A stretch of 64,000 bases of DNA, from assembly GCF_000428845.1 (NCBI RefSeq), contig NZ_AUAS01000006.1:124001-188000 (forward strand), in the 5' to 3' direction. Within the stretch, counting starts at the first letter, position 1; every line of letters begins with the position of its first letter. The notes under the pieces are model-generated. The model was given only the letters and a program-made list of their open reading frames with translations. It had not been told where the DNA came from and did no database searches. Positions 8,244-31,906 of the stretch are shown here, piece after piece. Source of the stretch: Dyadobacter alkalitolerans DSM 23607. Its GTDB lineage: Bacteria; Bacteroidota; Bacteroidia; Cytophagales; Spirosomataceae. A program made the translations under genes and the position numbers.

Positions 8244-9245
8244 TTACCGCCCTCTTTTGCCAAAAATGACAACAGCCGTAAGAAGAATAATCTTCAATTC
8301 AAGAAACAATGACCAGTTTTTGATGTAGTAGAGATCGTACATCAGCTTGTGCCGCGCATCGAAGACCCCTGCGCCGTAGGAATACATTACCTGAGCATAT
8401 CCAGTGATTCCGGGCTTGATGCTATGCCTGGAATTGTAGTAGGGAATAAGCTCATCAAAGGTTTCTGTAAAAACCTGTCTTTCCGGCCGTGGACCGATCA
8501 GTGACAAATCTCTTCTAAAAATATTGATGATTTGTGGCAATTCATCAATCCGGCTTAACCGCATGAAAGATCCGTATGAAAAAGTCCTCGAATCGTTCTT
8601 TTTGGAGAAAGTCGCCCCATTAGATTCTGCATCTAATGACATGGAGCGGAACTTAATACACTTGAAAGCGATGTTGTCCATCCCAACCCTTTCCTGATAA
8701 TAAAATACGGGACCGGGAGACTCAAGCTTAATGCGGAAATAGCTTAAAATCCAGAGCGGAAAAGTCAGCAGGAATAAAACAATGGAAACGGCAACGTCGA
8801 TAATCTTCTTTGGATATCTTACCCTTTTACCGAATGCGGGCATATCAGATAAATTAGGATTGATTTCCGATATGTCTTCGGGTATATAAACTTTCTTTAA
8901 GCTCTTCTCGCAGAAGTCATAAACGGTAGTGATGCGAATGGATTTGTTTTTACGAATAACCAATTCGTAAATGACCTTGTTACGCTTGTCGTAGTGAGGA
9001 TTAGTGACAAGGTGGACTTTCTCAAATTTGTCCAGTAAAGGTCTTACCGTGTAGTTAATCAGGTAATCATCGTCTTCTGTATGAGGGACCAGAATAATTT
9101 CCCTGTACGTCTGACGCAGATGTTTTAAATCGTATTTCTGTAAAAAATAGTCATAACTCGTGATAATCAAGATTTCATCGGTAGAAGCATTTTTGCTCAA
9201 CAATCGATGTACGTACTTTCGATTAGAAACAGAAGTTTGATCCAT
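8244..9245 (-). CDS. initiating sugar-phosphate transferase (polyprenyl-phosphate, WcaJ/PglC superfamily)
   Basis: Transfers a sugar-1-phosphate from a UDP-sugar to undecaprenyl phosphate, the first step of repeat-unit assembly. The C-terminal catalytic domain has one hydrophobic segment (VSIVLFLLTFPLWILSYF), then KCIKFRSM, SRIDELPQIINIFRRDLSLIGPRP and the GITGYAQV motif. Unlike WcaJ/WbaP it lacks the four N-terminal membrane helices; about 150 soluble residues with a Rossmann-like pattern precede the domain. The frame begins at TTG 9293, but the ATG at 9245 fits better. It lies in the minus-strand locus after a GT4 gene and before the Wzi genes. The sugar substrate cannot be read from sequence. 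Confidence 0.88.
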   Translation of the reverse strand: MDQTSVSNRKYVHRLLSKNASTDEILIITSYDYFLQKYDLKHLRQTYREIILVPHTEDDDYLINYTVRPLLDKFEKVHLVTNPHYDKRNKVIYELVIRKNKSIRITTVYDFCEKSLKKVYIPEDISEINPNLSDMPAFGKRVRYPKKIIDVAVSIVLFLLTFPLWILSYFRIKLESPGPVFYYQERVGMDNIAFKCIKFRSMSLDAESNGATFSKKNDSRTFSYGSFMRLSRIDELPQIINIFRRDLSLIGPRPERQVFTETFDELIPYYNSRHSIKPGITGYAQVMYSYGAGVFDARHKLMYDLYYIKNWSLFLELKIILLTAVVIFGKRGR

Positions 9246-9502
9246 ATGTGTGCGGCAATAGTAAAAGTTAAAGCGTGTGCAAAAAGAATGCAATTATAAT
9301 GTAAAAATTCCTATTTTGAAACAGCTAGCCAGGCATACTGAACCATCGGCGGCTTTCAGTTAATTAAAGGTTTATAGGTTTGAACAAACGTTAGATACGA
9401 TTGTCTGTTCATATATCGAGGAGAGGGCATTGAGCAAGTATTTCACAAAGATAAGTATGGTATATTTATACTCCGCTTTTTAGAGAGAATATTTTGAACA
9501 TA
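9246..9502. other. intergenic region before the sugar-phosphate transferase
   Basis: About 250 bp, AT-rich, no gene. It contains an interrupted palindrome GTTTG-AA-CAAAC (9378-9389) and on the minus strand a lone TATCTTTG (9446-9453) that matches the -7 box TAnnTTTG, with no matching -33 element. A promoter for the transferase and Wzi genes is possible but weakly supported. Confidence 0.35.
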
Positions 9503-10669
9503 TTATTTTCTTGCCGCCAGGTTTGAGCTATAAAATGCATGAATGGCTCGCCAAAGTTGCTGCTGTTCGAAATTCCTGAGGACAAATTGTTGCGCCAGTT
9601 TGCCCATTTTTCTACTGTCCTGCGGATTGTTTATCAGCTTCTCACAGGCATTTACTATGGCGTTGATACTTTTTGGCTGGATCAATATTCCCGTATTTCC
9701 ATCATCGATCATTTCATTGCAGCCGTTAATGTTGGTTGCAATGCATGGAATGCCCATGGCGCTGGCCTGCAACAGCGCTTGCGGAAAGCCCTCCCGGTAA
9801 CTAGGAAACACAAATATGTCAGAAGCAGCCAAGAACTTTCGCACGTCATGCTGATGCCCCACCGCAATAATGGACTTATTATTTGTGATTTCCGCATAGG
9901 TGTGTTGTTCCAGCGGATTCAGGTCTTCTGGCGCTCCTATCAGTACAAGTTTGAGGTTTTCGTGGCGTTTCTGGAGCACTAAAAATGCGGCTACCAATTC
10001 ATTAACACCCTTATAATTAGCAAGCCGGCCCATGAAGGATAGTACAATATCGCTGTGGCCAATGTTATGTGCTTTTCTGAATTCATTGCTTTCTGCCAGC
10101 AATTTCGGCGTAACTGAAAAATATTCCAGATCGATTCCGTTGCTGCTACCGTTGCCGATAACCTGCACTTTCGATTTGTCAGGACTGAGGTCGTTATCTA
10201 AAATAAATTTTTTGAGCTCCTGTGAGTTCGGTAAAACCCAGTGCGCACACTTATAGGTCAACGTTTCGACGAAGTCAAGAAGCTTTCTTTTCGGGCCGGT
10301 GACTTCCATGAGCGGCAGCCCGGCTACTGTGTGCATTCTAAGTGGAACCCTGCAAATGTAAGCCGCAAGCATTCCGATGATTCCAGCCTTAGGCGAATGG
10401 GTATGAACAACTTGTGGTTTGATTTTCCTGATGAGCCGGATGGTTGCAAAAAGAGCAAAAAGGTCTTTGAAAGGTGTTAATTCCCGCGAAAGATTAAGAG
10501 GGTAAAACGGGGCTCTCTGATTAAGCACCAAGTCACCAACATGTTTATCCGGAGAGCTGGCCATCGATACTTCCACACCCTGTTCAGACATGAATTTCAG
10601 TTGGCCCTTTAATAATATACGTAGCGAATAAGTTTCGGTTGTTATCCTAAGTAATTTGATTTTCTCCAT
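9503..10669 (-). CDS. glycosyltransferase family 4 (GT-B fold)
   Basis: Cytoplasmic retaining glycosyltransferase expected to add one sugar to the lipid-linked repeat unit. The N-terminal domain includes VVHTHSPKAGIIGMLAA (about 85-105); the C-terminal nucleotide-binding domain shows LSFMGRLANYKGVNEL and the donor-site region FVFPSYREGFPQALLQASAMGIPCIAT with the EGFPQALLQA variant of the EX7E motif. Length of 388 is normal. Resembles GT4 enzymes of O-antigen and capsule loci that begin with LLRITTETYSL. Donor and acceptor are not predictable. It lies 63 bp after the epimerase gene. Confidence 0.88.
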   Translation of the reverse strand: MEKIKLLRITTETYSLRILLKGQLKFMSEQGVEVSMASSPDKHVGDLVLNQRAPFYPLNLSRELTPFKDLFALFATIRLIRKIKPQVVHTHSPKAGIIGMLAAYICRVPLRMHTVAGLPLMEVTGPKRKLLDFVETLTYKCAHWVLPNSQELKKFILDNDLSPDKSKVQVIGNGSSNGIDLEYFSVTPKLLAESNEFRKAHNIGHSDIVLSFMGRLANYKGVNELVAAFLVLQKRHENLKLVLIGAPEDLNPLEQHTYAEITNNKSIIAVGHQHDVRKFLAASDIFVFPSYREGFPQALLQASAMGIPCIATNINGCNEMIDDGNTGILIQPKSINAIVNACEKLINNPQDSRKMGKLAQQFVLRNFEQQQLWRAIHAFYSSNLAARK

Positions 10670-15673: not shown

Positions 15674-16780
15674 CTATTTCTGTTGCAGCTCGTAGTATAG
15701 TTTGATATACTTATCAACCATCAAATCCATGTTGAAGTTTTTGACAAAGTGCATACCTTCCGCTGCTCTATCCGATGCCAGGCTGTTGTCATCTACAATC
15801 ATTCTCACTTTTTGTGCCAGTTCCTGATGATCCGCAGGAGCAAACAGAAAGTCGTCATTGGGTACGATTTCGCGTATACCAGCTACATTAGATCCTAAAA
15901 AAGGAACGTCCGCTGCCAGGGATTCCAGTGTAACGCCCGACATTCCTTCATAAGCGGAGGAAAGGACATTCAAATCAACGGATTTCATTAGAGAGGATAT
16001 ATCCGTCCGAAATCCCAGGTAGTGAATTCTATTTGATACGCCACATTCAGCAGCTATTTTCATAGTGTCTTCTTTTGCCTCACCTTCGCCTGCTAAAAGA
16101 ACATGATAACTTTCGCCTAGCAGTGCACAGGCTCGGATAAGTGTCGCCTGATCCTTTGGATATCTGAAACTGGCGGCCATGAGCATTAGTCTTGAATCTT
16201 TGGGAATATTGAGTTCTGAACAAAGACGTTGTCTCTCTATCCTGGTGGCTTTTGCAATGTTTGTGAGGTCAACGCCATTGTTAATCACCCGTATTTTGTC
16301 GCCCTGACCAATCCACTCGGACAATTTATCCTTTACGCTATCGGTGATTGCTATTATGGCCGAGTAGGGGCGATAAACTGCCCTTTCCAGCGGCCGCAGA
16401 TATTTCTTATCCCGTCTCTTATTGTGATTACTGTGCTCGGTGAATATGAGGACAGGTTTGATCCGTAACAGGGAAATGGCCAGGCTAGACCAGTATGAAG
16501 CTGGAAACAAATGAACATGGACGACATCAAACGGGTTAGCTTTCAAAAATTTCCATATCGCAATCGCGCACATGGGATTATAGAAGGTTGACATTCGAAG
16601 GTCATGAATGGCAATTCCCGCACTTTCAATGTTTTTTAAAAAGGCTGGAACCGACTTTTCCGCATTGAGCAGCAAGAGACTAATGTCGATATTTTTCCCT
16701 TTAAATATGGGCAGAGAAGATGCCAGAAGTTTCTCCCCGCCGCCCTGCGAAATGTCATTGGTAATTACGAGTACTTTCAT
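15674..16780 (-). CDS. glycosyltransferase family 4 (GT-B fold)
   Basis: 368-residue GT4 enzyme. N-terminal donor-independent motif SQGGGEKLLASSL (11-23) and FDVVHVHLFPASYW (about 84-97); C-terminal Rossmann domain with LMLMAASFRYPKDQATLIRA and SSAYEGMSGVTLESLAADVPFLGS, which carries the EGMSGVTLE form of the EX7E motif. Expected to act on lipid-linked intermediates at the inner face of the cytoplasmic membrane. It is the last gene before the strong terminator, 40 bp after a beta-helix gene. Sugar specificity unknown. Confidence 0.88.
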   Translation of the reverse strand: MKVLVITNDISQGGGEKLLASSLPIFKGKNIDISLLLLNAEKSVPAFLKNIESAGIAIHDLRMSTFYNPMCAIAIWKFLKANPFDVVHVHLFPASYWSSLAISLLRIKPVLIFTEHSNHNKRRDKKYLRPLERAVYRPYSAIIAITDSVKDKLSEWIGQGDKIRVINNGVDLTNIAKATRIERQRLCSELNIPKDSRLMLMAASFRYPKDQATLIRACALLGESYHVLLAGEGEAKEDTMKIAAECGVSNRIHYLGFRTDISSLMKSVDLNVLSSAYEGMSGVTLESLAADVPFLGSNVAGIREIVPNDDFLFAPADHQELAQKVRMIVDDNSLASDRAAEGMHFVKNFNMDLMVDKYIKLYYELQQK

Positions 16781-18215: not shown

Positions 18216-19334
18216 TCAATTTGACATCATTCTTAGCTTATACAATTCATGGTATTTCCTTGCGGTTGAGCGGATATGGTAGTTCTGAGCAAATGTCTTA
18301 ATGCCGTTTTCTGCTATATCCGCCTTGTTTTCGGACAAGTGAAAAGCCATAATAGCATCCAGATAAGCTTTTTCAGTAACCTCGTTGCTAAGGAATCCAT
18401 TTACCCCATCGGTAATCATTTCAGGAATTCCGCCAACAGCAGTGCATATCGGGATACAACCAAGGGACAATGCTTCAATCAGTGAAATCGGCATACCTTC
18501 GTAATGACTTGACAGGCAGAAAGTGTCAGCAATGGAGAGATAATCTACAATGTTGTCCCTGGCTCCGATCAATTCTATGTAAGGATCATTTTGGACAAGC
18601 TCCCGCAGATTTCCTGCAACTTGCTCTTCTCTCACATCACCAATGATCAGCAATCGGCACTTCTTTTCAGTAACCTGCGTGTTAAATGCCTGAACAGATC
18701 TTATTAACATGGCCTGGTTCTTCGCTTCTACCACACGGCCGACATTCAGAAACAGATACTCGTCTCCCTTAGGCGCAAATCTCTCTTTGAGCGCAGGCAA
18801 TTCCGGAGTCGGATGCAATTCAGGGCGGCCATTTACAATTGTTACATCGTTGTCCAGGTTATAATATGTTTTGAATGTCGCTTTCCCGTCCTGTGAAATC
18901 GTAATGGGAACTACACGGTTATTTTGATAATAATGTTTACGAATGCTTTTTAACACCGGGTTAGGACATTCCCGAGCGGCCTGATTATGAACAGTTTGGA
19001 AATACTTTGTATTGGAAGGAAGTCTCAGAGATAAATTTAAATTGACATATTCGAATGAGCTGGTATGTGTGTTTACAATATCTGGTTTAATCTTATTGAT
19101 CCAGCCAGCGACTTTTAACAAGAGTTTCGGGTCAAATCCTGCCTTTTTCCCGAATGAGATGTAATTAACCTGCTTATCCAATTCTGAAACAAAGGACTCT
19201 GAATCTTGATTATCCCTCAATGAAACCAGGTATACATCGGTTTCTTCAATTTTGGCAAGCGCATTGCATAAATCAACAACAAACCTTTCTGCACCGCCTC
19301 TACTCAGCGATGGAATAATGTGTACTATCCTCAT
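18216..19334 (-). CDS. glycosyltransferase family 4 (GT-B fold)
   Basis: About 372 residues from the ATG at 19334; the TTG at 19346 is less likely. N-terminal IPSLSRGGAERFVVDLCNAL (nucleotide-sugar enzyme signature GGAERF), DIVNTHTSSFEYVNL, and C-terminal FLNVGRVVEAKNQAMLIRSV and LSSHYEGMPISLIEALSLGCIP with the EX7E region. It overlaps the end of the polymerase gene (stop at 19300) by about 35 bp, consistent with translational coupling. Predicted cytoplasmic step of repeat-unit assembly; donor unknown. Confidence 0.88.
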   Translation of the reverse strand: MRIVHIIPSLSRGGAERFVVDLCNALAKIEETDVYLVSLRDNQDSESFVSELDKQVNYISFGKKAGFDPKLLLKVAGWINKIKPDIVNTHTSSFEYVNLNLSLRLPSNTKYFQTVHNQAARECPNPVLKSIRKHYYQNNRVVPITISQDGKATFKTYYNLDNDVTIVNGRPELHPTPELPALKERFAPKGDEYLFLNVGRVVEAKNQAMLIRSVQAFNTQVTEKKCRLLIIGDVREEQVAGNLRELVQNDPYIELIGARDNIVDYLSIADTFCLSSHYEGMPISLIEALSLGCIPICTAVGGIPEMITDGVNGFLSNEVTEKAYLDAIMAFHLSENKADIAENGIKTFAQNYHIRSTARKYHELYKLRMMSN

Positions 19335-20592
19335 TGTTGGTTTCAATTTGTTCAGATTTGTGTGGTATTTGCATTCTAAATAATGTGAGTCCGCTATAAA
19401 CGAGCAGGAAGTAGTTCAGGGAATACAACGTGGGTCTTTGAAAGAAAACCATAGCCAGGATCGCCATTGAAATACAGCTGAATATCAGATACTTGCGCCA
19501 CGGATGGAAATATGCAAACAGGAAAACAAGGTATATTAGGATCAATATTCCTCGTTCAAGTACAAAAACCCGGTAAGACAGCGTAGATCCCCCATACGCT
19601 TTCAACATATAGTCCTTTCCCTTACCAGTGTAGAAATCTGCGTCACTCTCTTGCACAAAGCCCTGATACATAGATTCAAAACCTCTGATCCGGGTGTCCC
19701 TGTTATTAACGACACCGACGATCCAGTCACCCTCCCATTCAAACCGGTGATAGACTCTCAACGATAAAATGGGATCATCCTTCGTACTTCTAGCGATGAA
19801 GACAAATGCGACATACGAAATGCAAATGAAAACGGCGGAAAATGCCAATCGAAAAAGCAGTTCTTTTGTTTTGAGCAGCCTTGTGTTTGAAAAGTAAAGT
19901 ACGGGCAAAAAAACAATCAGGAAGAACAACGAGAAAGACAGAACGCCGGAAATAATCAATACCCAAAACTCAAATCGCGTTAACATACGCCGGTAATAGA
20001 AGAGGATAAGTGGAATGATGGTGCCTACAACACCCGGCTCATCAAATACTGAGCTAAAACGATTTTCCACCCCGGCACGCGACCAATAGAACAACAAGTA
20101 ATTATCGTAAATTCTTCCTTTGCCTACTTCACCACGCTGGATAGAAAACAAAGGTGGAATATCAAAAATGTTAATCAGCAGATAAATAGGAAGCCCAATC
20201 ACCATCAGCCACAAAAACAGCTTAATGTACCAACGGGCGACTTTGTATTTTTCCTCATCATTAAGCAATATGAAGGTAAGCACAGGGAATATTCCGGAGT
20301 ACAACAATTGAAACGAGATCAGGAGCGAATCTTCATTATAATAAGCCCACCATACCGGAAAAAAAAGTGCAAGCAATATGTAGTTCTTGTACGAGTTTTT
20401 GAATATCAAAAACAACAGCGCGTACATATTCAGGAATTTCAGTCCGTATACACCTACACGGATCGGAAGGATTGTACTATATACCGGGTACGAATCAAAG
20501 AATGCTATCAACATTACATTGATACATATCAAGCTGCGGACATCAATTTTGAGGTCCTTTTTGATAGCGATACTCGGTGTCAGGATTTTCAT
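19300..20592 (-). CDS. O-antigen/exopolysaccharide polymerase-like membrane protein (Wzy type)
   Basis: Polytopic membrane protein of 430 residues with about ten to eleven hydrophobic segments and one large soluble loop (about 270-340) between late helices, the usual Wzy layout. Segments such as ENRFSSVFDEPGVVGTIIPLILFYYRR and the loop containing RIRGFESMYQGF resemble polymerase regions in Bacteroidota polysaccharide loci. It would join repeat units on the periplasmic side of the inner membrane. Wzy proteins are poorly conserved, so the call rests on topology and context: it is next to flippase and transferase genes. The reading is AT-rich compared with neighbours. Confidence 0.72.
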   Translation of the reverse strand: MKILTPSIAIKKDLKIDVRSLICINVMLIAFFDSYPVYSTILPIRVGVYGLKFLNMYALLFLIFKNSYKNYILLALFFPVWWAYYNEDSLLISFQLLYSGIFPVLTFILLNDEEKYKVARWYIKLFLWLMVIGLPIYLLINIFDIPPLFSIQRGEVGKGRIYDNYLLFYWSRAGVENRFSSVFDEPGVVGTIIPLILFYYRRMLTRFEFWVLIISGVLSFSLFFLIVFLPVLYFSNTRLLKTKELLFRLAFSAVFICISYVAFVFIARSTKDDPILSLRVYHRFEWEGDWIVGVVNNRDTRIRGFESMYQGFVQESDADFYTGKGKDYMLKAYGGSTLSYRVFVLERGILILIYLVFLFAYFHPWRKYLIFSCISMAILAMVFFQRPTLYSLNYFLLVYSGLTLFRMQIPHKSEQIETNNEDSTHYSIAE

Positions 20593-20614: not shown

Positions 20615-21658
20615 TTATGCTAAAAGTACGGCTTTCATTTCTTCCGGAGTTTTAACACAATCGAACCCCCAAATGTAATTAGTCAATTCATATTGGGCAT
20701 CAGTTATCCGTTCCTCAAAAGTGTTAAAGGCATCGTATAGCATTTGGTTATCCCTGTTTTTTGTGGTGGTCACGCCTGGTTCGTAATGATTTTTCAGAAG
20801 TGTGTCTCCACTTTTTGATTTTGATACCATGGACACGTCTTGCTTATACAGATAATTGGGTTTGCCCAGGAATAGACTGTAACCAACGTGTGTGCCGGTG
20901 CTGTTGGATATCACCATGTCGGCAAGCATAATGATCGATTTTAACCTGTTTAAGAAATAAAGATCGTCCCGGTGTCCTGCGGTGGTGAGTTTATAGCCCA
21001 TATTTTCATACGCAGCATGGTCACCGTTTTGGGCGTCTTTCCAATACATGCACACCAGCACGGTGTCAAATCCCGCTTTTCTACGTTCAATTTCGTTGCA
21101 AAATTCCTGTTGATCGTATTCAGACGAAACTGCCGCGATGGAATGGGTAGGAAAAACCAACAACACACGCCCCAGTTCCTTTTTTATATTGTTAAGAGCG
21201 CTTTCACTAAGAAGGCTTTCCGCATAATGAATATACGGTCCAATCGTAACGGAAGTTTTTTTAGCTTTCTCAGCGATATATTGCGCTCGGTAATTGCTGT
21301 ATGTAAGGGTCTTTTTTGCCAGTGTCACCGAATCCGTCCTCACGAGGTTTCCGATTACGATTCCATGCTCAATGTATATTTGATGCAGGGGAAGTTTTGC
21401 ATTGGCGATATTTACCTGACAATAAGTGAGCAGGCAATTTAGAATGCCATAATAATTACAATCATCAAAATAGAATACCGGATAATATGGCAAAGGGGCA
21501 CTCAATGTTTCCAGGTCGAAAATACTTGTGGAACGCCGGGATTCTACCATTGCCGGGAAATCCAAAGACTTAGACCGCTTCATCCGGCAATAAATCTTAC
21601 GAAATAATTTGCTCCCCTCAGCCAGCTTTACAACTTCTCTTTTTAAAGTACCAATCAT
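20615..21658 (-). CDS. unassigned GT-B-like protein of the pse locus; candidate pseudaminyltransferase
   Basis: 347 residues from the ATG at 21658; the longer frame opens with TTG at 21718 and would overlap the flippase gene. No membrane segments or signal peptide. Visible blocks: IYIEHGIVIGNLVRTDSVTL with later TYSNYRAQYI, LLVFPTHSIAAVSSEYDQQEF, VLVCMYWKDAQ, and SNSTGTHVGYSLFLGKPNYLY. The last resembles the C-terminal nucleotide-site region (ST-G, GKP) of glycerophosphotransferase, Kdo-transferase and polysialyltransferase GT-B enzymes. I do not recognise a named family. Its place directly after pseI and wzx makes it the best candidate in the locus for using CMP-pseudaminate. This is inference. 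Confidence 0.5.
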   Translation of the reverse strand: MIGTLKREVVKLAEGSKLFRKIYCRMKRSKSLDFPAMVESRRSTSIFDLETLSAPLPYYPVFYFDDCNYYGILNCLLTYCQVNIANAKLPLHQIYIEHGIVIGNLVRTDSVTLAKKTLTYSNYRAQYIAEKAKKTSVTIGPYIHYAESLLSESALNNIKKELGRVLLVFPTHSIAAVSSEYDQQEFCNEIERRKAGFDTVLVCMYWKDAQNGDHAAYENMGYKLTTAGHRDDLYFLNRLKSIIMLADMVISNSTGTHVGYSLFLGKPNYLYKQDVSMVSKSKSGDTLLKNHYEPGVTTTKNRDNQMLYDAFNTFEERITDAQYELTNYIWGFDCVKTPEEMKAVLLA

Positions 21659-21684: not shown

Positions 21685-23016
21685 CTACCTCGCGAAAACC
21701 AAGCGAAAGTTGAGCCAAGGCATAGGATAAACCTTTGCGCTTAGTACCATTACGATTAAGCTATTGAGTACACTAATGGCAAAGTTTGAGTAAGCTGCGC
21801 CGATGGGTCCCAGGTTTTTAACGAAAAAGTAAGATAATGCAACCTGTAATGATGAACACAAAAATGTTACTATCGCAAGGGATGCCGACCTTTTTACAAA
21901 AAAGATAAAACTGGCATACATTAGATAAACGCCTTGAAATGCCTGTGAAAAAAGTGCCCAGCCTACATATATTTTCGCATCAGCATATTTGGCCGATAAA
22001 AAATGGTCTATTACATAATCGGATGCAAGGGAAGCAAGAAATGTCAAGCCAAGCAATGCCACAATATACATATAGGTAAATTTGACCAGCTTTTGCTTCT
22101 TGGATTCCAAGATGTGCTCGTCCTGGATAGACAAACTTTTATAGACAAACGGAGCATAGGCATTGTTAAAGGCAAGCGTCAGAAATGATATTAGCAGCCC
22201 AAACTGGAATCCCGCAGCGTAAATACCACTTGCAGATACACCTGCCAAATTCGACACGATAAGGCGGTCGGATCCCGCCCTTGCCCAGATACTTAATGCG
22301 TGAGGCACTAGCGGAAGGCAAAAGCCAAAAACTTCTTTTATATAATTTTTATTAAAAAACGCATTTAGATAGCCGCGCTTCCATAATAAAAAAATACTGA
22401 TGAACCCGTATATAATTGAACTCGTACCAATACCAATGAGTCGCCCGCGCCACCCCATGTCAAAAACAGTAATAAGAACCAGTGATAAACCAACATCACA
22501 AACTGTCTGGGAGATCTGGTAGCTTCCAAAAAGCAGCGGGCGTTCCTCTAATCTCCATATTATGAGGTTTATAGAGCTCAATACCTGAGAAAGTCCTATC
22601 GCCAGTCCACTCACAACGAAGATGGTGCCTACGGAAAGGAAATCTTCTATTTGCTTATTAAATAAAAATATAACTAACCCGCAGGTGCTGAGTGTTATCG
22701 CTATGACAAAAAATATGTTAAAAATATATTTCCCAATTTCTGACTTATCAAGTTTATAGAAATTGACCGAAATGATACTCTGAACGCTAATGCCGATGAA
22801 TATGACCAGAAAATTGACATAAACATTATAATTGGCAACTATTCCGTAATCGGCAGGAAGTAAATAATAGGTCAGTAATGGAAGAATTAAAAATGGAACT
22901 GCTTTATTGATAGCATCGGTAATTACATAAAGCAGGCTATTCCTGAAAAGCGGATGATCCTTTAATGCACCAATCCTTTTCTTAAAGCCAATAGTGCTCG
23001 TCCGGTGATTCAGCAT
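21685..23016 (-). CDS. polysaccharide repeat-unit flippase (Wzx, MOP/PST family)
   Basis: 443-residue integral membrane protein with about twelve to fourteen hydrophobic segments, typical of Wzx flippases, which move the undecaprenyl-linked repeat unit across the inner membrane. The N-terminus PLFRNSLLYVITDAINKAVPFLILPLLTYYLLPADYG is characteristic of the oligosaccharide flippase family (LPxDYG). A second half-signature, SIWARAGSDRLIVSNLAGVSASGIYAAG, matches the mid-protein region. It follows pseI by about 45 bp and precedes the unassigned gene by 26 bp. AT-rich, as is common for wzx. Confidence 0.87.
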   Translation of the reverse strand: MLNHRTSTIGFKKRIGALKDHPLFRNSLLYVITDAINKAVPFLILPLLTYYLLPADYGIVANYNVYVNFLVIFIGISVQSIISVNFYKLDKSEIGKYIFNIFFVIAITLSTCGLVIFLFNKQIEDFLSVGTIFVVSGLAIGLSQVLSSINLIIWRLEERPLLFGSYQISQTVCDVGLSLVLITVFDMGWRGRLIGIGTSSIIYGFISIFLLWKRGYLNAFFNKNYIKEVFGFCLPLVPHALSIWARAGSDRLIVSNLAGVSASGIYAAGFQFGLLISFLTLAFNNAYAPFVYKSLSIQDEHILESKKQKLVKFTYMYIVALLGLTFLASLASDYVIDHFLSAKYADAKIYVGWALFSQAFQGVYLMYASFIFFVKRSASLAIVTFLCSSLQVALSYFFVKNLGPIGAAYSNFAISVLNSLIVMVLSAKVYPMPWLNFRLVFAR

Positions 23017-23061: not shown

Positions 23062-24099
23062 TTAATCTATATGTTCCATTTCGAGCCTGCTGCCACGCTT
23101 CAATTCTTTGTTGACAGTCTTCCCCAAGATTTCGTGGTAATGTTTGGGATGTAAACCAAATCCGGGACGAATGGAACGTACATTTTTTTCTGAAATTTGT
23201 TCACCGGCGGCGATGTCTTCCACTACATATAGAGACCGTGAAAAATCCTTTCCTTTTGCCTGCTTCTCAGTCAATTGATAATCTACTTTGCCAATGGCCT
23301 GTTCGGCTTCACGGACAGATTTTACCATTTCCGAAAATTCAGATTCATTCATCGAAAAGGAAGCATCGGGGCCACCGACGGATCTATCCAGAATGAAATG
23401 CTTTTCAATGATTTTGGCACCCAGAACTGTTGCAACAACAGGAACTGTGCTGCCGATGGTGTGGTCAGAAAGTCCGCTAATGACATTGAAACGTTCGCGG
23501 AAGTCCTTGACCATTGTCATATTTGCTTCCGCAATTGGCGCGGGATAACTGGATGTGCATTTCAATAAGGCGATCTGATCATTACCTTGTCTTTTGCAAG
23601 CATCCAGTGCAAGCTCGATATCCTCCTCCGTAGCAATCCCTGTAGAAATAATCACAGGCTTGCCCTTGGAAGCAACCAACTCAATAAGTGGAATATCTGT
23701 GATTTCGAATGAAGCGATTTTGTAAGCCGGAACATTGAGATTTTCCAGAAATTCGACAGCCGTTGGATCGAAAGGGGAGGAAAAACAAATCAGACCTTCT
23801 TCTTCCGCAACCCGGAATAATTCTGCGTGCCATTCCCAGGGCGTGTAAGCTTCCTGGTATAAATCATAAAGATACTGTCCGTCCCAGATCGTTCCGCCAA
23901 TCCGGAAGTCGTCCATGCGCGAATCGATCGTAATGGTATCCGCCGTGTAAGTTTGAAGCTTGATGCAATCCGCTCCCGCGCGTTTCGCAGCCCGGATCGT
24001 TGCTATGGCTGTTTCCAAGCTGCCGTTATGGTTTGCCGAAAGTTCAGCAATAATAAATACGGGGCTGTCCTGATTTATTTCAAATGTTCCTATTTTCAT
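23062..24099 (-). CDS. pseI: pseudaminic acid synthase
   Basis: Condenses 2,4-diacetamido-2,4,6-trideoxy-L-altrose with phosphoenolpyruvate to give pseudaminic acid. NeuB-type barrel with IIAELSANHNGSLE (18-31), IKLQTYTADT, FSSPFDPTAVEFLE, YKIASFEITD, PVIISTGIAT and KHFILDRSVGGPDASFSM; a C-terminal SAF domain (about 290-346) contains VRSIRPGFGLHPKHY, which contacts substrate in the partner subunit. GGPDASFS rather than the sialate-type sequence favours PseI over NeuB. ATG at 24099 preferred to GTG at 24102; it overlaps the end of the pseG-pseH gene by about 20 bp. Confidence 0.92.
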   Translation of the reverse strand: MKIGTFEINQDSPVFIIAELSANHNGSLETAIATIRAAKRAGADCIKLQTYTADTITIDSRMDDFRIGGTIWDGQYLYDLYQEAYTPWEWHAELFRVAEEEGLICFSSPFDPTAVEFLENLNVPAYKIASFEITDIPLIELVASKGKPVIISTGIATEEDIELALDACKRQGNDQIALLKCTSSYPAPIAEANMTMVKDFRERFNVISGLSDHTIGSTVPVVATVLGAKIIEKHFILDRSVGGPDASFSMNESEFSEMVKSVREAEQAIGKVDYQLTEKQAKGKDFSRSLYVVEDIAAGEQISEKNVRSIRPGFGLHPKHYHEILGKTVNKELKRGSRLEMEHID

Positions 24100-25528
24100 C
24101 ACCGATATACATAGTGTATTTATAATTTTCGCCGTCTGTTTGTTTTACAAATCCGAAGCGTTCAAATGTTTTGCAAGATGAGATGTTTTCTCTCATAACT
24201 ATCCCCGAGATCAAGTTCACCGAATGCGGGGCATTAATGAAAGACAAAATTCCTTGCTTAAGTAACGTTGCGCCAAGCCCTTTTCCATGATATGCCGGAT
24301 CCAACAAGTAACTGATGACAGCTTCTTGCCCATCTATATCAAACCTGATGGATCCAACAGGTGCTCCTGATAATGACGCAATGTAAAATTCACACTTCTG
24401 ATCATCCAGTTTGCGCGTCAGCCAGGCGATATGTTCTTCAAATTTAATTTTACCCTTACTCAGGGAATATCTTCGGACGCTTTCATCAATTGCCCATTTG
24501 TAAGTCAATTCAGCATCATTGCTGGTCAGTTCCCTGAGCGAAAAGTTTTTCTCGTCCAATAATTGCCTGAAAAGGTTTTGAATCCGGTTTCCCGACAACC
24601 CATCAACTAGCTGCGGGTTCATGTCAGGAGGCTGTCTAAAATATGTTTCAACCGCCTTAGTCAGATTCTCTTTGGAAAAATCCGCTGCGCTGATGAAAGC
24701 ATTTGCGTCCTTATAGTTTTCAAAAACAAAGCGTTGATTTGAAACATACATTCCGGATATGATACTGGCTCCCGAGGTAAGCGCCTCCGTTAGAATCCCA
24801 CTCGAGGGAACAATGCAGAGGTCAACTTCTGACATGAGTTGTGCCATGTCCTCTGCACTGATATTCGAATAATGCAGCACACTTTCCTGCTCGCTCAGAA
24901 TCTCATCGATTGTATTGTGATGAGCGTAAGCCGCACCGGTAACTACAATTATTTCTTTGAAGCGCCTTGTGTCAAGCACTACTTCAGTTGCAAGTTTTGT
25001 TAAATTTCTGCTGTCCGATCCTCCGAAGCATATCAAAACAGAATCGCTCTTACCAGGCTGCCTGCCTTTTTTTGCCAGATTCAAAAACGCCGGTCTGATC
25101 AGGGCATATTTAGGGCCCAGTGCATATTGCGTATAAGGCTGTGCCGGATATTCATTCGGAGAAACGCAGGGCGTATGATTTAGCACAAGGTCCGCATAAG
25201 TCGTTTTCTCATGCAGATCATCAATGCAGATCAAGCCGCAGCCGATCAGTTTAATAGATTTCTGATAGTCACTTTCCAATTCATAACTATCCAGCACAAC
25301 CAGGTTGTTTGGTGACAAAATGGATATCAGATTGTCATCATTTTCCAACCGAAGCAGCTGAAAACCGTCTGTTTCTATTTCTTCAATAATGCTTTCGGGA
25401 ACTTGCTTGCAGGCGAAAATAACGTCGAAGTCGTCGCCGAGCATCTTTGCCAAAGCTATACATCTAACGAGATGACCTAGGCCAATGCTGGGGCTTCCAT
25501 CCGTTCTGATGTATAGTTTACTTTTCAT
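24080..25528 (-). CDS. pseG: fused UDP-sugar hydrolase PseG and N-acetyltransferase PseH
   Basis: Two pathway enzymes in one chain of 482 residues. The N-terminal part (1 to about 330) is PseG, which removes UDP from UDP-2,4-diacetamido-2,4,6-trideoxy-beta-L-altropyranose: IRTDGSPSIGLGHLVRCIALA at the start, CIDDLH, CFGGSDSRNLTKLA and VDLCIVPSSGILTEALTSG. The C-terminal part (about 335-482) is a GNAT domain (LRELTSNDAELTYKWA, YLLDPAYHGKGLGATLLKQGI, FERFGFVK), the expected PseH activity that acetylates N4. Separate genes are usual in Campylobacter and Helicobacter. Order BCF(GH)I and overlaps with pseF and pseI show one operon. Confidence 0.9.
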   Translation of the reverse strand: MKSKLYIRTDGSPSIGLGHLVRCIALAKMLGDDFDVIFACKQVPESIIEEIETDGFQLLRLENDDNLISILSPNNLVVLDSYELESDYQKSIKLIGCGLICIDDLHEKTTYADLVLNHTPCVSPNEYPAQPYTQYALGPKYALIRPAFLNLAKKGRQPGKSDSVLICFGGSDSRNLTKLATEVVLDTRRFKEIIVVTGAAYAHHNTIDEILSEQESVLHYSNISAEDMAQLMSEVDLCIVPSSGILTEALTSGASIISGMYVSNQRFVFENYKDANAFISAADFSKENLTKAVETYFRQPPDMNPQLVDGLSGNRIQNLFRQLLDEKNFSLRELTSNDAELTYKWAIDESVRRYSLSKGKIKFEEHIAWLTRKLDDQKCEFYIASLSGAPVGSIRFDIDGQEAVISYLLDPAYHGKGLGATLLKQGILSFINAPHSVNLISGIVMRENISSCKTFERFGFVKQTDGENYKYTMYIGDENRNI

Positions 25529-26219
25529 ATAGCAATCGAAATTTCATCTCTGCCATCAACCAATCCGAATGTGTATCAATGTCTTGCACTTCTTCTTCGG
25601 AAAGAATTACAGGAGCGCTGTTTGAAGTAAAAAGCGAGTCGGTAATGTGCAATGGATTGTACCAATACCATTGACCGGCATCATGATAAACCGTTTTTAA
25701 ATCCTGAGACCGGACATTTTTATTTTCCGGCCACACCATTTCTATCTTCCCATCATTCAATTGCAATCCACGCCAAACGGGATATGAGAATGGTACAACC
25801 GGGAATACAGAATCGTAACTAAATGTATTGAGTAATGTTAGCCCTTCTGCCAGATGTTCTTTTCTGATCAGCGGTGCAGTAGGGTATATACAGCAAATGC
25901 TATCGAATGCCTTGGATAACCGAGATAAATATTCTCGCTCAACTTCTTTGATCACGTCAACAGTGGAGGCGAAATCGTCCGAGTTCTTTTCAGTCCTTAA
26001 AAATGGAACCGCAGCGCCGAATTGTTTTGCAATCGCGGCAATCTCCTGGTCATCCGTAGACACCATCACCTCATCGAACAGGCCGGAAGCCAGCGCAGTC
26101 TCGATGGCATAAGCGATAATTGGTTTACCGAGAAAATCCTTGATATTTTTCTTCGGAATGCGCTTACTGCCGCCCCTTGCCGGAATGATTGCCAGGGATT
26201 TACTCATTGTAAAATTCAT
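25518..26219 (-). CDS. pseF: pseudaminic acid cytidylyltransferase
   Basis: Activates pseudaminic acid as CMP-Pse. 233 residues, close to the family norm, with the nucleotidyltransferase motif AIIPARGGSKRIPKKNI (10-26), DEVMVSTDDQEIA, ICCIYPTAPLI (the CMP-sialate synthetase type YPTAP) and DIDTHSDWLMAEM at the end. Two ATG starts are possible, 26219 and 26207; both overlap or abut pseC. Its 3' end overlaps the pseG-pseH start by 11 bp. Confidence 0.92.
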   Translation of the reverse strand: MNFTMSKSLAIIPARGGSKRIPKKNIKDFLGKPIIAYAIETALASGLFDEVMVSTDDQEIAAIAKQFGAAVPFLRTEKNSDDFASTVDVIKEVEREYLSRLSKAFDSICCIYPTAPLIRKEHLAEGLTLLNTFSYDSVFPVVPFSYPVWRGLQLNDGKIEMVWPENKNVRSQDLKTVYHDAGQWYWYNPLHITDSLFTSNSAPVILSEEEVQDIDTHSDWLMAEMKFRLLYEK

Positions 26220-27375
26220 TAACAGACTGTATCACAAATAATTGCTCTTCATCCGTCAGCGTAGGATACATTGGCAAGCTGATACATTTCCGATAATAGC
26301 TTTCAGCTTTTGGCATGTCACCAACTTTCCAGCCTAAGCCCTGATAATAAGGCATCAAATGGCATGGGATGTAATGGATCTGTGCGAAAATTTTCTGCTC
26401 CCGCAAATGGTTGTAAAGACCTAGACGATCGTCTGCTTCTATAATGTAAAGGTGATAAGCATGACCGGCATCCACGCCACTTTGTCCTGAAATGAAGGAT
26501 TTTCCTGAAAATGCATCGTTGTATTTTTGAGCAATCAGCCTGCGTCTCGCAATTCCTTCGCCTGCCCTTTTCAATTGGCTTGTTCCAAGGGCAGCCTGGA
26601 AATCGGTCAGGCGGTAATTGTAACCCAACGTCTGCATTTCCATATACCAGCCTGGGTAACTTTCATCTCCACCAGCTAGTTCTATGCTGTTCACATACAA
26701 GTCATTGGATTTTACGATGCCGTGGGTACGGAGTGCAAGAAGCTTTTGGTACAGCTCTATACTATTTGTTGTGACCATTCCGCCTTCCCCGCAAGCGATA
26801 TGCTTAACAGGGTGGAAGCTGAATATAGCAAGATCTGCAAATTTGCTGTTTCCACAAAGCTGCTCGTTGCCCTCAGAGTCTGTAAAAAAGCCTCCCGGCG
26901 CGTGGCATGCATCTTCAATAATCCACAAACCGTATTCATCGGCAAGATTTTTTATTTCCTCCAGATTAACGGCTCTGCCAGCGAAGTCGACAGGAACTAT
27001 GCCCTTGTAAGTCCCTTTTGGCGATGCTTCCAAAAGGCTTCTTACAGCACTGACATCAATTAAATAACTGAAAGGATCAATGTCTGCGAACACAATTTCA
27101 CCTCCGCAATAGCGGATACAGTTTGCAGAAGCTGCGAATGTAATCGGCGTTGTTATCACCTTGTCCCCCGGACTTACATTCAGTGCGAGAGCGCATAAAT
27201 GCAGTGCAGCAGTTCCATTTGCAACCGCAACAGCATATTTTGCTCCTACATACTTTGCAAATGCTGTCTCAAACTCCTGGATATTCGGACCCTGGGTCAG
27301 GTAATCGGATTTCAAAACATCCGTAACAGCCCTTAGATCTTCCTCAGTGATGTTTTGCCTTCCGTATGGTATCAT
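26200..27375 (-). CDS. pseC: UDP-4-keto-6-deoxy-N-acetylaltrosamine aminotransferase
   Basis: PLP enzyme of the DegT/DnrJ/EryC1/StrS family, 391 residues, adding the C4 amino group using glutamate. N-terminal IPYGRQNITEEDLRAV is typical of PseC. VANGTAALHLCALAL (51-65) binds phosphate, WIIEDACHAPGG has Asp155, and Lys191 in SFHPVKHIACGEGGM forms the Schiff base. FAQIHYIPCHLMPYY near residue 340 is also a PseC feature. It starts 11 bp after pseB. Confidence 0.93.
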   Translation of the reverse strand: MIPYGRQNITEEDLRAVTDVLKSDYLTQGPNIQEFETAFAKYVGAKYAVAVANGTAALHLCALALNVSPGDKVITTPITFAASANCIRYCGGEIVFADIDPFSYLIDVSAVRSLLEASPKGTYKGIVPVDFAGRAVNLEEIKNLADEYGLWIIEDACHAPGGFFTDSEGNEQLCGNSKFADLAIFSFHPVKHIACGEGGMVTTNSIELYQKLLALRTHGIVKSNDLYVNSIELAGGDESYPGWYMEMQTLGYNYRLTDFQAALGTSQLKRAGEGIARRRLIAQKYNDAFSGKSFISGQSGVDAGHAYHLYIIEADDRLGLYNHLREQKIFAQIHYIPCHLMPYYQGLGWKVGDMPKAESYYRKCISLPMYPTLTDEEQLFVIQSVNEFYNE

Positions 27376-27386
27376 ACCCGAAAAAA

Positions 27387-28403
27387 TTAAACTGTAAAAT
27401 CTGAATCTACGTGCTCCTTAATCAACGCGCGCAGACTGTCAACTGTTTCCCACTCCGTGTTATTTCCGGAATTATATGAAAACCCGTCGGGCACTTTCTT
27501 CGCATTGAAATGTGCGATGAAATCTGCTAAATTCCAATGGGGAGTCTGAGGGACAATGGCATAGTACTTACCTAAATCGTAAGTAAAGAACGAGTCTGAG
27601 GTTGTAATCATTTCCTCATGGATCTTCTCGCCAGGGCGTATCCCAATAACGCGATGCTCGCATTCAGGGCCAATGGCCTGTGCAATGTCCAGAATATTAT
27701 AAGATGGGATTTTAGGAACAAAAAGTTCGCCTCCCCATGCAGTTTCCAATGCATGCAAAACCATGTCAACTCCGCCTTGCAGGGAAATGTTGAAGCGGGT
27801 CATCGTTTCAACTGTTATCGGCAATACACCGGTTTTCTTCTTATTAATGAAAAAAGGAATAACGGAACCGTTAGAGCCCATTACGTTCCCGTAACGCACC
27901 ACCGAGAATTTGATAGGATTGCGTCCGCGAATGTTATTGGCAGCGATAAAGAGCTTGTCAGACGTCAGTTTTGTGGCGCCATAAAGATTGATCGGAGCGG
28001 CAGCTTTATCTGTTGACAGCGCAACAACGTGGCTTACCTCGGTGTCTAAGGCTGCATTAATTACATTTTGCGCTCCGTTAATGTTAGTCTTAACACATTC
28101 CGAAGGATTGTATTCTGCAATAGGCACATGCTTCATAGCAGCAGCATGTATAACGAAGTCGATCCCTTTGAAAGCTCTTCTTAACCGTTCTTCATCTCTT
28201 ACATCACCAATGAAAAAACGGATTTGTGGGTATTTTTCTGGTGTGTATTCCTGCGCCATCTGGAATTGCTTCTGCTCATCCCTTGAAAAGATTACTAACC
28301 TTTTCACATCCGGCCATCTTTTGAAAATCGTTTCGGTCAATGCTTTACCTAAAGAACCAGTTCCTCCTGTTATTAGTATTGATTTACCGGTCAAATCTAG
28401 CAT
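27387..28403 (-). CDS. pseB: UDP-N-acetylglucosamine 4,6-dehydratase (inverting)
   Basis: First enzyme of the pseudaminate pathway; dehydrates UDP-GlcNAc and inverts C5. Short FlaA1-type SDR without membrane helices: GGTGSLGK (13-20), RDEQKQFQM, HAAAMKHVPIAEYNP, LSTDKAAAPINLYGATK with Asp132, Lys133 and Tyr141, and MTRFNISL. 338 residues is normal. It is the first of five contiguous pse genes, 44 bp after the Wzz-like gene. Confidence 0.93.
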   Translation of the reverse strand: MLDLTGKSILITGGTGSLGKALTETIFKRWPDVKRLVIFSRDEQKQFQMAQEYTPEKYPQIRFFIGDVRDEERLRRAFKGIDFVIHAAAMKHVPIAEYNPSECVKTNINGAQNVINAALDTEVSHVVALSTDKAAAPINLYGATKLTSDKLFIAANNIRGRNPIKFSVVRYGNVMGSNGSVIPFFINKKKTGVLPITVETMTRFNISLQGGVDMVLHALETAWGGELFVPKIPSYNILDIAQAIGPECEHRVIGIRPGEKIHEEMITTSDSFFTYDLGKYYAIVPQTPHWNLADFIAHFNAKKVPDGFSYNSGNNTEWETVDSLRALIKEHVDSDFTV

Positions 28404-28447: not shown

Positions 28448-29494
28448 TTAAACAAATTGCCTGTGCAGCTTTTCCTTGAAGAATATGATGTACGAGAGCG
28501 TAACGAATATGCCAAGAACAGAGAAAATAATGCCTATGAACAAACGTTTCGGACTGCTTTTCGACAAAGGGACCCGCACAGGTTCGAGCACTTTAAATAC
28601 TGGTTTTTCTTCCTTTTCGCGAATCTTGAACTGTTCCAGCTTATTAGATAAGTCGGAATAAATGGCTTGTGACAGCACATATTCCGCTTGCAGCCTTTGC
28701 TCTTCAATTCTGGCCACGTTCAGGAAAGTATTTCTGTGTGAATCTCTGTAAGCTTGCAGTGCATACTCGGCGCCTTGCTGACGTTTCTTAGCCTCTTCTA
28801 CGCGTTTTTGTAAAAATTCAACTTGCTGCGTTGTCTTGGAAACAGTATAGTTCGTCACATACTCGATGAGATATTTCTCGCTTGCTGAAACTAACATCGC
28901 GGCGACTACCGGGTCCGTCATCTCACTTTCAATGGTGATGATTCCGTCGGTTGCGCCAACCGTAGCTTGAACCAAGCCTTTGGCAGCATTAACAAGCCGT
29001 TCTTGTTCCATTGTGAATGACAGAATTCCGGTGTCTGTTTTCGGCTTTAGTGCGGGTTTTTCTGATTTTTTACTTCCAAACGATAGCAGGCGGGACAGGA
29101 AGCTTTGAGAACTATCCCTTTTCATGAAGCTCTCAAGCGAGGCATATGAAACATTATCCTGATCAACAACCGGAACTTTCAACAAATACTGTCCGAAAGG
29201 GACGGTTGATAAAATGTTTGGATATAGCTCGGGAACAAGTTTTCCACTCGGATCAGCTCCTGCGCCAAGCGCCATACTAAAAAAGGAGCTGTTCCTGCTA
29301 GAACCCAATTCCGGTAATAATATGGTTTGAGCTGTATACCTTTTTTTAAGTAAGAAGCTTATTGCCACCCCAAGGATCCCAAAGGCAATGGCAGCAACGA
29401 CCAAAACTAAGAAATACCGCTTGAAGAATCCAAGTACCTCGAGAAAGCTGATTTCGACTGTATCGGTTGTCTTTACTGACTGAATATCGGGCAT
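28448..29494 (-). CDS. Wzz-type polysaccharide co-polymerase (no kinase domain)
   Basis: 348 residues: an N-terminal transmembrane segment (about 29-51, FLVLVVAAIAFGILGVAISFLL interrupted by short polar residues), a long periplasmic helical part with a coiled-coil stretch (QVEFLQKRVEEAKKRQQGAEYALQAY), and a C-terminal segment with a PLSKSSPKRLFIGIIFSVLGIFV proline-containing motif. This is the layout of chain-length determinants. The Wzc/BY-kinase domain is absent, as the protein ends just after the second helix. Expected role: setting chain length and linking Wzy to the SLBB exporter, whose gene ends 6 bp upstream. Confidence 0.88.
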   Translation of the reverse strand: MPDIQSVKTTDTVEISFLEVLGFFKRYFLVLVVAAIAFGILGVAISFLLKKRYTAQTILLPELGSSRNSSFFSMALGAGADPSGKLVPELYPNILSTVPFGQYLLKVPVVDQDNVSYASLESFMKRDSSQSFLSRLLSFGSKKSEKPALKPKTDTGILSFTMEQERLVNAAKGLVQATVGATDGIITIESEMTDPVVAAMLVSASEKYLIEYVTNYTVSKTTQQVEFLQKRVEEAKKRQQGAEYALQAYRDSHRNTFLNVARIEEQRLQAEYVLSQAIYSDLSNKLEQFKIREKEEKPVFKVLEPVRVPLSKSSPKRLFIGIIFSVLGIFVTLSYIIFFKEKLHRQFV

Positions 29495-29500: not shown

Positions 29501-31906
29501 TTAAAGAATACGGATTAAAGCAATCGCCAGAGTGGTAAATAAGGATATAATTGCGAGTCTTTCTCCTCTCGACATAGGCTGTTCCAACTTCGGTTCCTTC
29601 AACGGAACTGTCACAGTAGATCCTGGCTGAAGTTTCGGGTAGGACCGGAAAAATAAGAACTTACTTGTGCGATGCGTCCTACCATTGGGGTAGGATACGT
29701 AAACCCTGTTTTTGCGCGCTCTTTCAGCAAATCCACCAGCCTGGGAAATATATTCGTGGAAGTTAAATCCTGGATCATAGTTTACCAGTGAAGGATTATA
29801 AACTCCTCCCTGGATCCTCACCATTTCCGATTTTTTAGGAATATAAATGGTATCTCCATCCGCCAACAGCAGGTTAGCAGGAATAGAAGGCTTCTCAATG
29901 ATCGCTTTCAGGTCGAGCGCGACTAACTCCTGGTTTCGGTAAAATCTGGCTCCTTCTATGTAAGCTTCTTTCCGCATGCCGCCCGCCTTAGGAAACAAGT
30001 CTGATATTTTCTCGAAGTTGTTCAGAATGGTGTAAGTTCCGGGATAATTGACCTGACCAAAAATCGTGACCGTTTTCTGTGACTCATATCGCGGGGACTT
30101 ACGCACCAGGACAATGTCGTAAGGATTAAGTGTAAACTTCTGGTCCTGCTCATTCAATGTCAGGTTATCCGCAACGTCCAGTGTGAAAATGCGAACATTC
30201 TGGTCAGAAGGAAGCCCGGTCGTATCATTTTTAACCCTACGGGAAACTTCGATGCGGTAGGGGATACCGCCTTCCGTATAGCCACCTGCCTGGAATATCA
30301 AATCCGCGATGGTGATATCTTTGTAATAATAATATTCACCAGGATTAATAACCGATCCTTTTACGGACAAGTAGGTGAATTCCTTTAAATCATCAACTGC
30401 CTTAATGGTCAGAATGTCGCCTGGCAGCAATGTAATGTCAGGGATCTCATTGTTAAGTAGTTTTCTCAGATCAATCGCAACAAGTCCCGTTTGTGAATCA
30501 CCGCTTGATCTTTCCAGCAGTGCGCGGTTAAGAAATGCTCTTGGACTGATCCCTTGCGAAATCGTAATCAGGTCTTTCACCGTTTTGGTGCGTTCGTCCA
30601 GTGGATATATGCCTGGCCTGGTCACTGCCCCGCGGATTTCAATCTGGTTAGCAACAACTTCCAGGATTCTTTTAACATTATATATATCCCCGTTTTTTGG
30701 GATGAATGTGTTCACCTGAGCAGAGTCAATGCTTCCGATTACGAAGTTATTACCTGTATTTCTTTGATATTGAATCAGCTGCGTGAATGCGTCCGGTGTA
30801 AAACCGCCTGCATATTTCAAAATGTCTTTTAAAGTTTCGCCTGCTTTGGCCTCGAAAATTCCGCTCTTCTTAACCTCACCGGTCAGTTCCAGCCGTGTTT
30901 CATAAGGACGGATCAAAATAATGTCCTGATCCTGCAACGCAATGTTGTCCCTTAGATCAGCGTCTATCAGGAACCGGTATAAGTCTATCTGACGGATTAT
31001 TTTATTATTTCTGATGATGTCAATATTCCGGTAAGAACCGTTTCTGCCTGGTCCTCCTGACACATAAAGTGCATTGAAAGCGGTAGATAGGGAAGAGACC
31101 GTGTAGGTGCCGGGACGTACAACCTCACCTGCAATCATTACCCTGATACTGCGAACATTACCAAGCGTAATGGTGGAATAGGTGCCGGATCCGGGGCGGT
31201 TTAATGTTGAATAAGCCTGTCGCAGTCTGTTGACAATTCTTTCGCTAGCCTGTTCAATGGTTAGTCCATTCACGTAAACGGGCGCCAGATTAAGCATTTT
31301 AACCGTTCCTTCCGGGCTGATCTTCATTCGGAAATTATCAACTGAATTTCCGTAAATATCTACAATCAATTCATCGTCAGGACCTAAAATGTAATTTCGT
31401 GGGGTTGGAATGCGCAGGTTCGGCTCGAACGTCGTTGAACTTCTTCTGAAAAATGCAGAGCCGAACGTTCTGTTCAATCTTCTTGCCCGCGCTCTGCCAG
31501 CAGCAGTCGTATCTCTTTCGTTGTTTGTTTCTTCTTCCAACTCGTCCAGATCATCCTGCTCCCGGGTTTCGTCCAGCTGGTCTCTGTTAGGGTCGTTTTT
31601 TGTGTTGTCTTTGGAAGTCTGTTCCAGGCGTTTCCGCATTGCAGAGATATCGTCCAGCGTGTAACCTCTTTGTAATGCTGCCTTTTCAATGTCCATATCA
31701 GACATGCCCGACTGCTTGGCCTGGTTATAGAATTCAACAGCCTGGGAGTTGGAAACGGGCGCTCCGGTTGATGGTGTCGGCGTGGTTTGCCCCGGTACAG
31801 TGGTCGGGGTCTGTGGTACAGGATTCTGGGCTTGAGTGACTGTGCTTATCAGTAGGATAAAAAACGCTATCCGGATGGCGTTAACTGTTTTAGATAAATA
31901 ATGCAT
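29501..31906 (-). CDS. SLBB-domain polysaccharide export protein (Wza-like)
   Basis: 801-residue exporter, about twice the length of Wza. Signal peptide ending near TQAQ, a Pro/Thr-rich and acidic linker (about 28-130), then the Poly_export domain (YILGPDDELIVDIYGNSVDNF, about 168-188; TVKMLNLAPVYVNGLTIEQA), followed by about five to six SLBB repeats with recurring patterns (IRVMIAGEVVRPGTYTVSSL, LELTGEVKKSGIFEAKAGETL, IEIRGAVTRPGIYPLDERT, VTIFGQVNYPGTYTI, VRIQGGVYNPSLVNYD). A C-terminal hydrophobic segment (RLAIISLFTTLAIALIRIL) could cross the outer membrane. It is the first gene of the locus, so the promoter should lie in 31907-32047. Confidence 0.9.
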   Translation of the reverse strand: MHYLSKTVNAIRIAFFILLISTVTQAQNPVPQTPTTVPGQTTPTPSTGAPVSNSQAVEFYNQAKQSGMSDMDIEKAALQRGYTLDDISAMRKRLEQTSKDNTKNDPNRDQLDETREQDDLDELEEETNNERDTTAAGRARARRLNRTFGSAFFRRSSTTFEPNLRIPTPRNYILGPDDELIVDIYGNSVDNFRMKISPEGTVKMLNLAPVYVNGLTIEQASERIVNRLRQAYSTLNRPGSGTYSTITLGNVRSIRVMIAGEVVRPGTYTVSSLSTAFNALYVSGGPGRNGSYRNIDIIRNNKIIRQIDLYRFLIDADLRDNIALQDQDIILIRPYETRLELTGEVKKSGIFEAKAGETLKDILKYAGGFTPDAFTQLIQYQRNTGNNFVIGSIDSAQVNTFIPKNGDIYNVKRILEVVANQIEIRGAVTRPGIYPLDERTKTVKDLITISQGISPRAFLNRALLERSSGDSQTGLVAIDLRKLLNNEIPDITLLPGDILTIKAVDDLKEFTYLSVKGSVINPGEYYYYKDITIADLIFQAGGYTEGGIPYRIEVSRRVKNDTTGLPSDQNVRIFTLDVADNLTLNEQDQKFTLNPYDIVLVRKSPRYESQKTVTIFGQVNYPGTYTILNNFEKISDLFPKAGGMRKEAYIEGARFYRNQELVALDLKAIIEKPSIPANLLLADGDTIYIPKKSEMVRIQGGVYNPSLVNYDPGFNFHEYISQAGGFAERARKNRVYVSYPNGRTHRTSKFLFFRSYPKLQPGSTVTVPLKEPKLEQPMSRGERLAIISLFTTLAIALIRIL

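Follow-up and report, generated by a model that had tools for sequence, protein, structure and literature searches.

A GT-B protein of no recognised family is a candidate pseudaminic acid transferase in a Dyadobacter capsule locus

Pseudaminic and legionaminic acid pathways are widespread in bacteria; the transferases for these acids are, to our knowledge, few and share no single common sequence family. The capsule locus in the window (the whole stretch of 64,000 nucleotides that was analysed, from the 6.29 Mb genome of Dyadobacter alkalitolerans DSM 23607) raises the question of which enzyme transfers its pseudaminic acid (Pse). The locus is of the Wzx/Wzy capsule type and encodes the CMP-pseudaminic acid pathway in full, in line with the claim of the initial annotation that it makes CMP-Pse. 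The genes are all on the minus strand, in the order Wza-like exporter, Wzz, PseB, PseC, PseF, PseG-PseH, PseI, Wzx, GTx (the protein under study) and Wzy; beyond Wzy lie three GT4-type transferases, a dehydrogenase/epimerase pair and an initiating transferase. PseB, PseC, PseF, PseG and PseI each score above their TIGRFAM cut-off, and the PseH half of the PseG-PseH fusion alone is below its own. Because of this low PseH score, the acyl group from the GNAT half of the fusion (24080-25528) may differ from acetyl. Pfam puts the three other non-initiating transferases in GT4-type families, in agreement with the first description. Three tandem Wzi-type capsule assembly proteins (471-497 aa) are encoded at the end of the locus (window 3720-8204), and two beta-helix/pectate-lyase-like proteins (window 13229-15436, a weak Pfam match, and 16821-18179) are interleaved with the GT4 genes.

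The gene for GTx, a protein of 347 residues, is real; both the open reading frame and the orthologue starts confirm it. The start codon is the ATG at 21658, and the start Met is matched exactly or within a few residues in seven Dyadobacter orthologues. An upstream TTG at 21718 is unneeded, because the orthologues begin at or near the same Met. The ATG is 26 bp from wzx upstream and the stop codon 22 bp from wzy downstream, and because of these short gaps the three genes are read as one operon. Between Dyadobacter species dN is 0.14-0.35; dS is saturated, hence only dN is given. The features of the locus and of GTx are listed in Table 1.

Table 1. Positions in the window of the capsule genes and of the segments of GTx
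Feature	Position	Strand	Remarks
Initiating sugar-phosphate transferase	8244..9293	-	PF02397
GT4-type transferase c	9503..10669	-	Pfam
GT4-type transferase b (GT4b)	15674..16780	-	Pfam; linkage control
GT4-type transferase a (GT4a)	18216..19346	-	Pfam
Wzy-like polymerase	19300..20592	-	Membrane protein, no Pfam match, between GTx and GT4a
GTx	20615..21658	-	Predicted CMP-pseudaminic acid (nonulosonate) transferase, GT-B, 347 aa
SNSTGTHVGYSLFLGKP	20858..20908	-	Residues 251-267; predicted nucleotide-phosphate loop, putative role
Y205-W206-K207-D208	21035..21046	-	[YF][WYF]xD at the HP motif position
LLVFPTHS block	21134..21166	-	Residues 165-175; holds the first strand of the C domain and His172, which is invariant
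E97-H98-G99	21362..21370	-	Loop after N-domain strand; proposed catalytic residues
Wzx flippase	21685..23016	-	PF01943/PF13440
PseI, pseudaminic acid synthase	23062..24102	-	TIGR03586, 516.8 bits, cut-off 340
PseG-PseH fusion	24080..25528	-	TIGR03590 over cut-off; GNAT half under PseH cut-off
PseF, CMP-Pse synthetase	25518..26219	-	TIGR03584
PseC aminotransferase	26200..27375	-	TIGR03588
PseB dehydratase	27387..28403	-	TIGR03589
Wzz chain-length protein	28448..29494	-	
Wza-like exporter	29501..31906	-	Poly_export/SLBB

GTx fits no named glycosyltransferase family, as had been noted at the outset. It has no match in Pfam or NCBIfam and no relative among the PDB sequences, whether searched as a single protein or as a profile, and 18 diverse homologues (gathered from genome searches, a scan of GTDB contigs and plasmids) gave no consistent or convincing Pfam family match. 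The family is rare, with a sound match in 5 of 396 sampled Bacteroidota genomes besides its own; plasmid-borne members carry the annotation 'hypothetical protein', and no relatives were found in viral contigs or phage genomes. The GT4 transferases of the same locus share the GT-B fold and the operon with GTx, but GTx has no match to PF00534 (Glycos_transf_1) or PF13439 (Glyco_transf_4). The Maf flagellin nonulosonate transferases use CMP-nonulosonate donors, as predicted for GTx; however, GTx is located in a capsule locus rather than a flagellin locus and does not match the Maf domain PF01973. Neither GTx nor the 18 members match PF05159 (KpsS/KpsC-type) or the PF04464 (TagB/TagF-type) HMM, and hhalign of GTx with the PF04464 protein of the strain itself was negative (probability 0.2%). 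The sialyltransferases of GT38, GT42, GT52 and GT80 are CMP-nonulosonate enzymes, and the order of an acidic-x-Gly segment followed by a C-domain phosphate loop is reminiscent of GTx. They differ in that the 18 members have no Pfam match to these families and no PDB match by profile, and in the [YF][WYF]xD that GTx carries at the HP site.

The AlphaFold model of GTx, calculated from an 18-row alignment, has a mean pLDDT of 92.7 and a pTM of 0.92. The top Foldseek matches in the PDB are GT-B enzymes with TM-scores of at most 0.42: NeuC (the best), other UDP-GlcNAc 2-epimerases, GT4 enzymes, starch synthase, TagF, TarL and capsule multienzymes. The C-terminal domain folded alone matches LanGT2, TagF, a GT9 enzyme and others with weak scores, all generic GT-B neighbours, and among viral structures the GTx model finds only generic glycosyltransferases. 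The model supports the assignment of GTx as a GT-B protein with two Rossmann-like domains; placement in any of the solved families is not supported. The initial annotation as GT-B-like is borne out by this confident model and by the structural comparison that it had proposed. The same annotation had likened the C-terminal block SNSTGTHVGYSLFLGKP to the nucleotide site of glycerophospho-, Kdo- and polysialyltransferases. What stands of this is only a general GT-B resemblance: TagF does occur as a structural match, yet HMM searches gave no match and the HP motif is missing. The best 50 structures include neither a sialyltransferase nor a Kdo-transferase, and the best structural matches contain no transferase known to use a CMP-sugar. 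TagF, TarL and other PF04464 polymerases are GT-B enzymes like GTx, with TM-scores of at most 0.4 and no sequence match; the retaining Kdo transferases of GT99, GT107 and GT140, also GT-B, are absent from the best 50 and have no sequence match.

With NeuC as the best Foldseek match, GTx could instead be a GT-B enzyme of the nonulosonate pathway, such as a hydrolysing nucleotide-sugar epimerase like NeuC, and not a transferase. This is highly improbable in our view: the TM-scores (0.3-0.4) are similar for many GT-B families, GTx has no PF02350 match, and the whole Pse pathway, including PseG, is already present in the window and with several of the relatives. An epimerase role was rejected on the missing PF02350 match and on a pathway that is complete without GTx.

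Conserved residues were taken from an alignment of 18 family rows and from a wider set that adds relatives of 17-20% identity. Invariant in the 18 rows are E97-H98-G99, R124, GPYI (140-143), Y145, K159, G163, P170, H172, G221, G228, R238 and G255; in the wider set H98, G99 and H172 are still invariant, and N252 and G255 almost so. In Rossmann folds, active-site residues are placed after strands. By DSSP of the GTx model, E97-G99, H172 and S251-N252 all come after predicted strands. Two motifs, D/E-D/E-G and HP, mark TagB/TagF-type enzymes and the sialyltransferases of GT38, GT52 and GT80. For D/E-D/E-G, the nearest segment of the 18 members is always E-H-G, and the wider set shows x-H-G. The HP position is [YF][WYF] in 18 of 18, and HP itself was found only in one distant relative (L027). 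The HP motif has been described for bacterial sialyltransferases and for GtfS of Tannerella (PMC6388019).

The gene neighbourhood was compared at 23 distinct loci outside the cassette shared within Dyadobacter (L023-L027, L031-L045 and L064-L066; Bacteroidota, Bacillota and Alphaproteobacteria). A NeuB-family synthase is located within 10 kb of the GTx relative in 18 of them and within about 16 kb in 21. The three more distant synthases are at about 12-15 kb (L026/L087, L025/L088 and L041, the last distance taking G721:C2 as the contig of L041), and the two remaining loci sit on short contigs of 14.2 and 11.5 kb. Relatives of GT4b, used as a control, have a synthase within 10 kb in none of nine loci, a small control in which most rows are 23-27% identical. 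The distant loci are mostly without the other genes of the window locus; a synthase and GTx form the pair that stays constant. In Aureibacter (L064) the order is pseBCF-pseI-GT4-GTx-EpsG, with the GTx relative labelled hypothetical by NCBI. The linkage to pseI that a neighbourhood survey was expected to reveal is strong and recurs in unrelated loci.

Linkage to a synthase would be equally expected if Pse were the acceptor, with GTx adding the next sugar onto it from a UDP- or GDP-sugar donor and one of the GT4 enzymes of the locus transferring Pse; the generic GT-B structural neighbours of GTx are also mostly UDP-sugar users. Nevertheless, the GTx family accompanies nonulosonate pathways though the other transferases vary, which suits a donor-linked enzyme better, and we know of no GT4 enzyme that uses a CMP-nonulosonate. 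We regard Pse as the acceptor of GTx as unlikely.

The synthase at these loci is not of the same type throughout. In the clade of the window protein (five Dyadobacter rows, Sphingobacterium and Flavobacterium sp. IB48) a PseI over the cut-off lies beside every member, and the same is true at L032, L043, L045, L064 (Aureibacter), L024 and L023. The remaining members have NeuB-type synthases under both the PseI and the NeuB cut-offs. Polaribacter (L035) and Azospirillum (L065) are examples of members outside Pse loci. On the GTx tree the nonulosonate labels need 6-7 changes, weakly better than shuffles, and the window clade alone is uniform; a perfect sorting of sub-clades by nonulosonate type was rejected on these label changes. 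We read the family as CMP-nonulosonate transferases in at least three sub-groups, Pse-linked in the window clade. Co-occurrence with loci other than those for Pse, which the initial annotation had set against its own proposal, does exist and the family is not Pse-specific; all of these are nonulosonate loci, however, and the reading is widened rather than refuted. Two fusions, each on a single metagenome contig, fit repeat-unit assembly. The first (L032:7883-10324, a Bacilli MAG) is one 813-aa ORF in which an O-antigen polymerase/ligase domain (residues 6-477) precedes GTx; the second (L040:1056-4175) combines a GTx relative with both a sulfotransferase and a GT4 domain in one ORF.

Within Dyadobacter, 9 of 29 sampled genomes have both a GTx relative and a PseI over the cut-off, and 20 have neither (Fisher 1e-7; 2e-6 for the eight close orthologues alone). 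The window cassette is common to seven of the other eight GTx-positive genomes (L015-L021), which are not independent of the window locus because the cassette is shared. The Pse locus of genome G532 is an independent case of linkage within the genus: it is without the Wzx, Wzy and GT4 enzymes of the window and has a GTx relative, 21-23% identical, near PseI. In one Dyadobacter genome (G547; L019:5187-5305) pseF is a short remnant, with GTx and the other pse genes kept. Across the taxonomic family, 78 of 87 sampled PseI-positive genomes are without a GTx relative, even by profile, and a remote profile search over 201 genomes of this family added no relatives from PseI-positive genera other than Dyadobacter. 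Therefore at least one other type of Pse transferase operates there.

GTx had also been called the only gene left to use CMP-Pse. Within the locus this holds, yet the same strain carries another nonulosonate locus, which has a TagB-like candidate of its own. At G000:C12:191800-211700 (L089) a second NeuB-family synthase is accompanied by a NeuC-like epimerase, a CMP-transferase homologue, a 461-aa TagB/TagF-like protein that is the only PF04464 protein of the genome, Wzy and a GT4 enzyme. No protein with a Maf domain (PF01973) or of KpsS/KpsC type (PF05159, presumably the domain that ties KpsS to GT118) was found anywhere in the genome. GtfS (Tanf_01245), the transferase for a Pse derivative in Tannerella forsythia, has been described as a 445-aa protein whose domain is of TagB type and which carries the motifs D/E-D/E-G, HP and DXD (PMC6388019, PMC7439481). 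Because of this description, the PF04464 protein is the natural candidate transferase for the second locus. It could also serve the window locus, so that Pse would be transferred from outside and GTx would have another role in the capsule. Yet the PF04464 protein adjoins its own synthase, epimerase and CMP-transferase, a single such protein in the genome gives one candidate per locus, and GTx tracks PseI; we judge a transferase from outside the locus very unlikely. Proximity to nonulosonate genes can mislead, since spsB, a TagB-like gene beside the legionaminic acid (Leg) genes of B. subtilis, is dispensable for Leg transfer (PMC7439481).

Two described Pse transferases close in role differ from GTx. 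GtfS is from Bacteroidota, encoded in a pse locus and predicted to be GT-B, like GTx; compared by its published description, it differs from GTx in length (347 aa in GTx), in the E-H-G of GTx, and in that GTx has no HP and no PF04464 match. KpsS1 of Acinetobacter baumannii, a retaining pseudaminyltransferase of GT118, resembles GTx in its CMP-Pse donor, which is the one predicted for GTx, its place in capsule repeat synthesis and its GT-B type. It is, however, a KpsS relative, with a reported identity of about 30% to the KpsS of E. coli (PMC12887879), whereas the GTx family and the genome are without PF05159.

GTx is probably a GT-B pseudaminyltransferase with CMP-Pse as donor and a lipid-linked capsule repeat as acceptor, donor and acceptor both being suggested by context. 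CMP-Pse5Ac7Ac has been made enzymatically (PMC7910423). We favour a pseudaminyltransferase because the pathway is complete, GTx and PseI co-occur exactly among the sampled Dyadobacter genomes and the linkage to a synthase recurs in unrelated loci. The first proposal of a candidate pseudaminyltransferase is thus supported, as a predicted function, by linkage and predicted fold. PseB, PseC, the PseG-PseH fusion, PseI and PseF would make CMP-Pse, from which, in the cytoplasm, GTx would move Pse, or an acylated form specific to the locus, to the lipid-linked repeat unit of the capsule. Wzx would then flip the Pse-bearing repeat unit and Wzy would polymerise it. E97-H98 may act as catalytic base or acid, the CMP would be held by the PxHS, YWxD and SNxxGTH segments, and GTx is predicted to need no metal.

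On balance, and with less assurance than for GTx itself, we lean towards an undescribed family or clan of CMP-nonulosonate transferases founded by GTx, with at least three sub-families in Bacteroidota, Bacillota and Alphaproteobacteria. Its signature would be x-H-G ... PxH[ST] ... [YF][WYF]xD ... [ST]NxxG[TS], and CMP would be bound without an HP motif, by a route separate from that of the known sialyltransferases. As a new recognisable family, it would allow the missing transferase to be assigned in capsule loci where it is labelled 'hypothetical protein'. It may provide small enzymes with which Pse glycoconjugates could be made, and the way in which GT-B enzymes bind CMP-nonulosonates when the HP motif is missing could be tested further on it.
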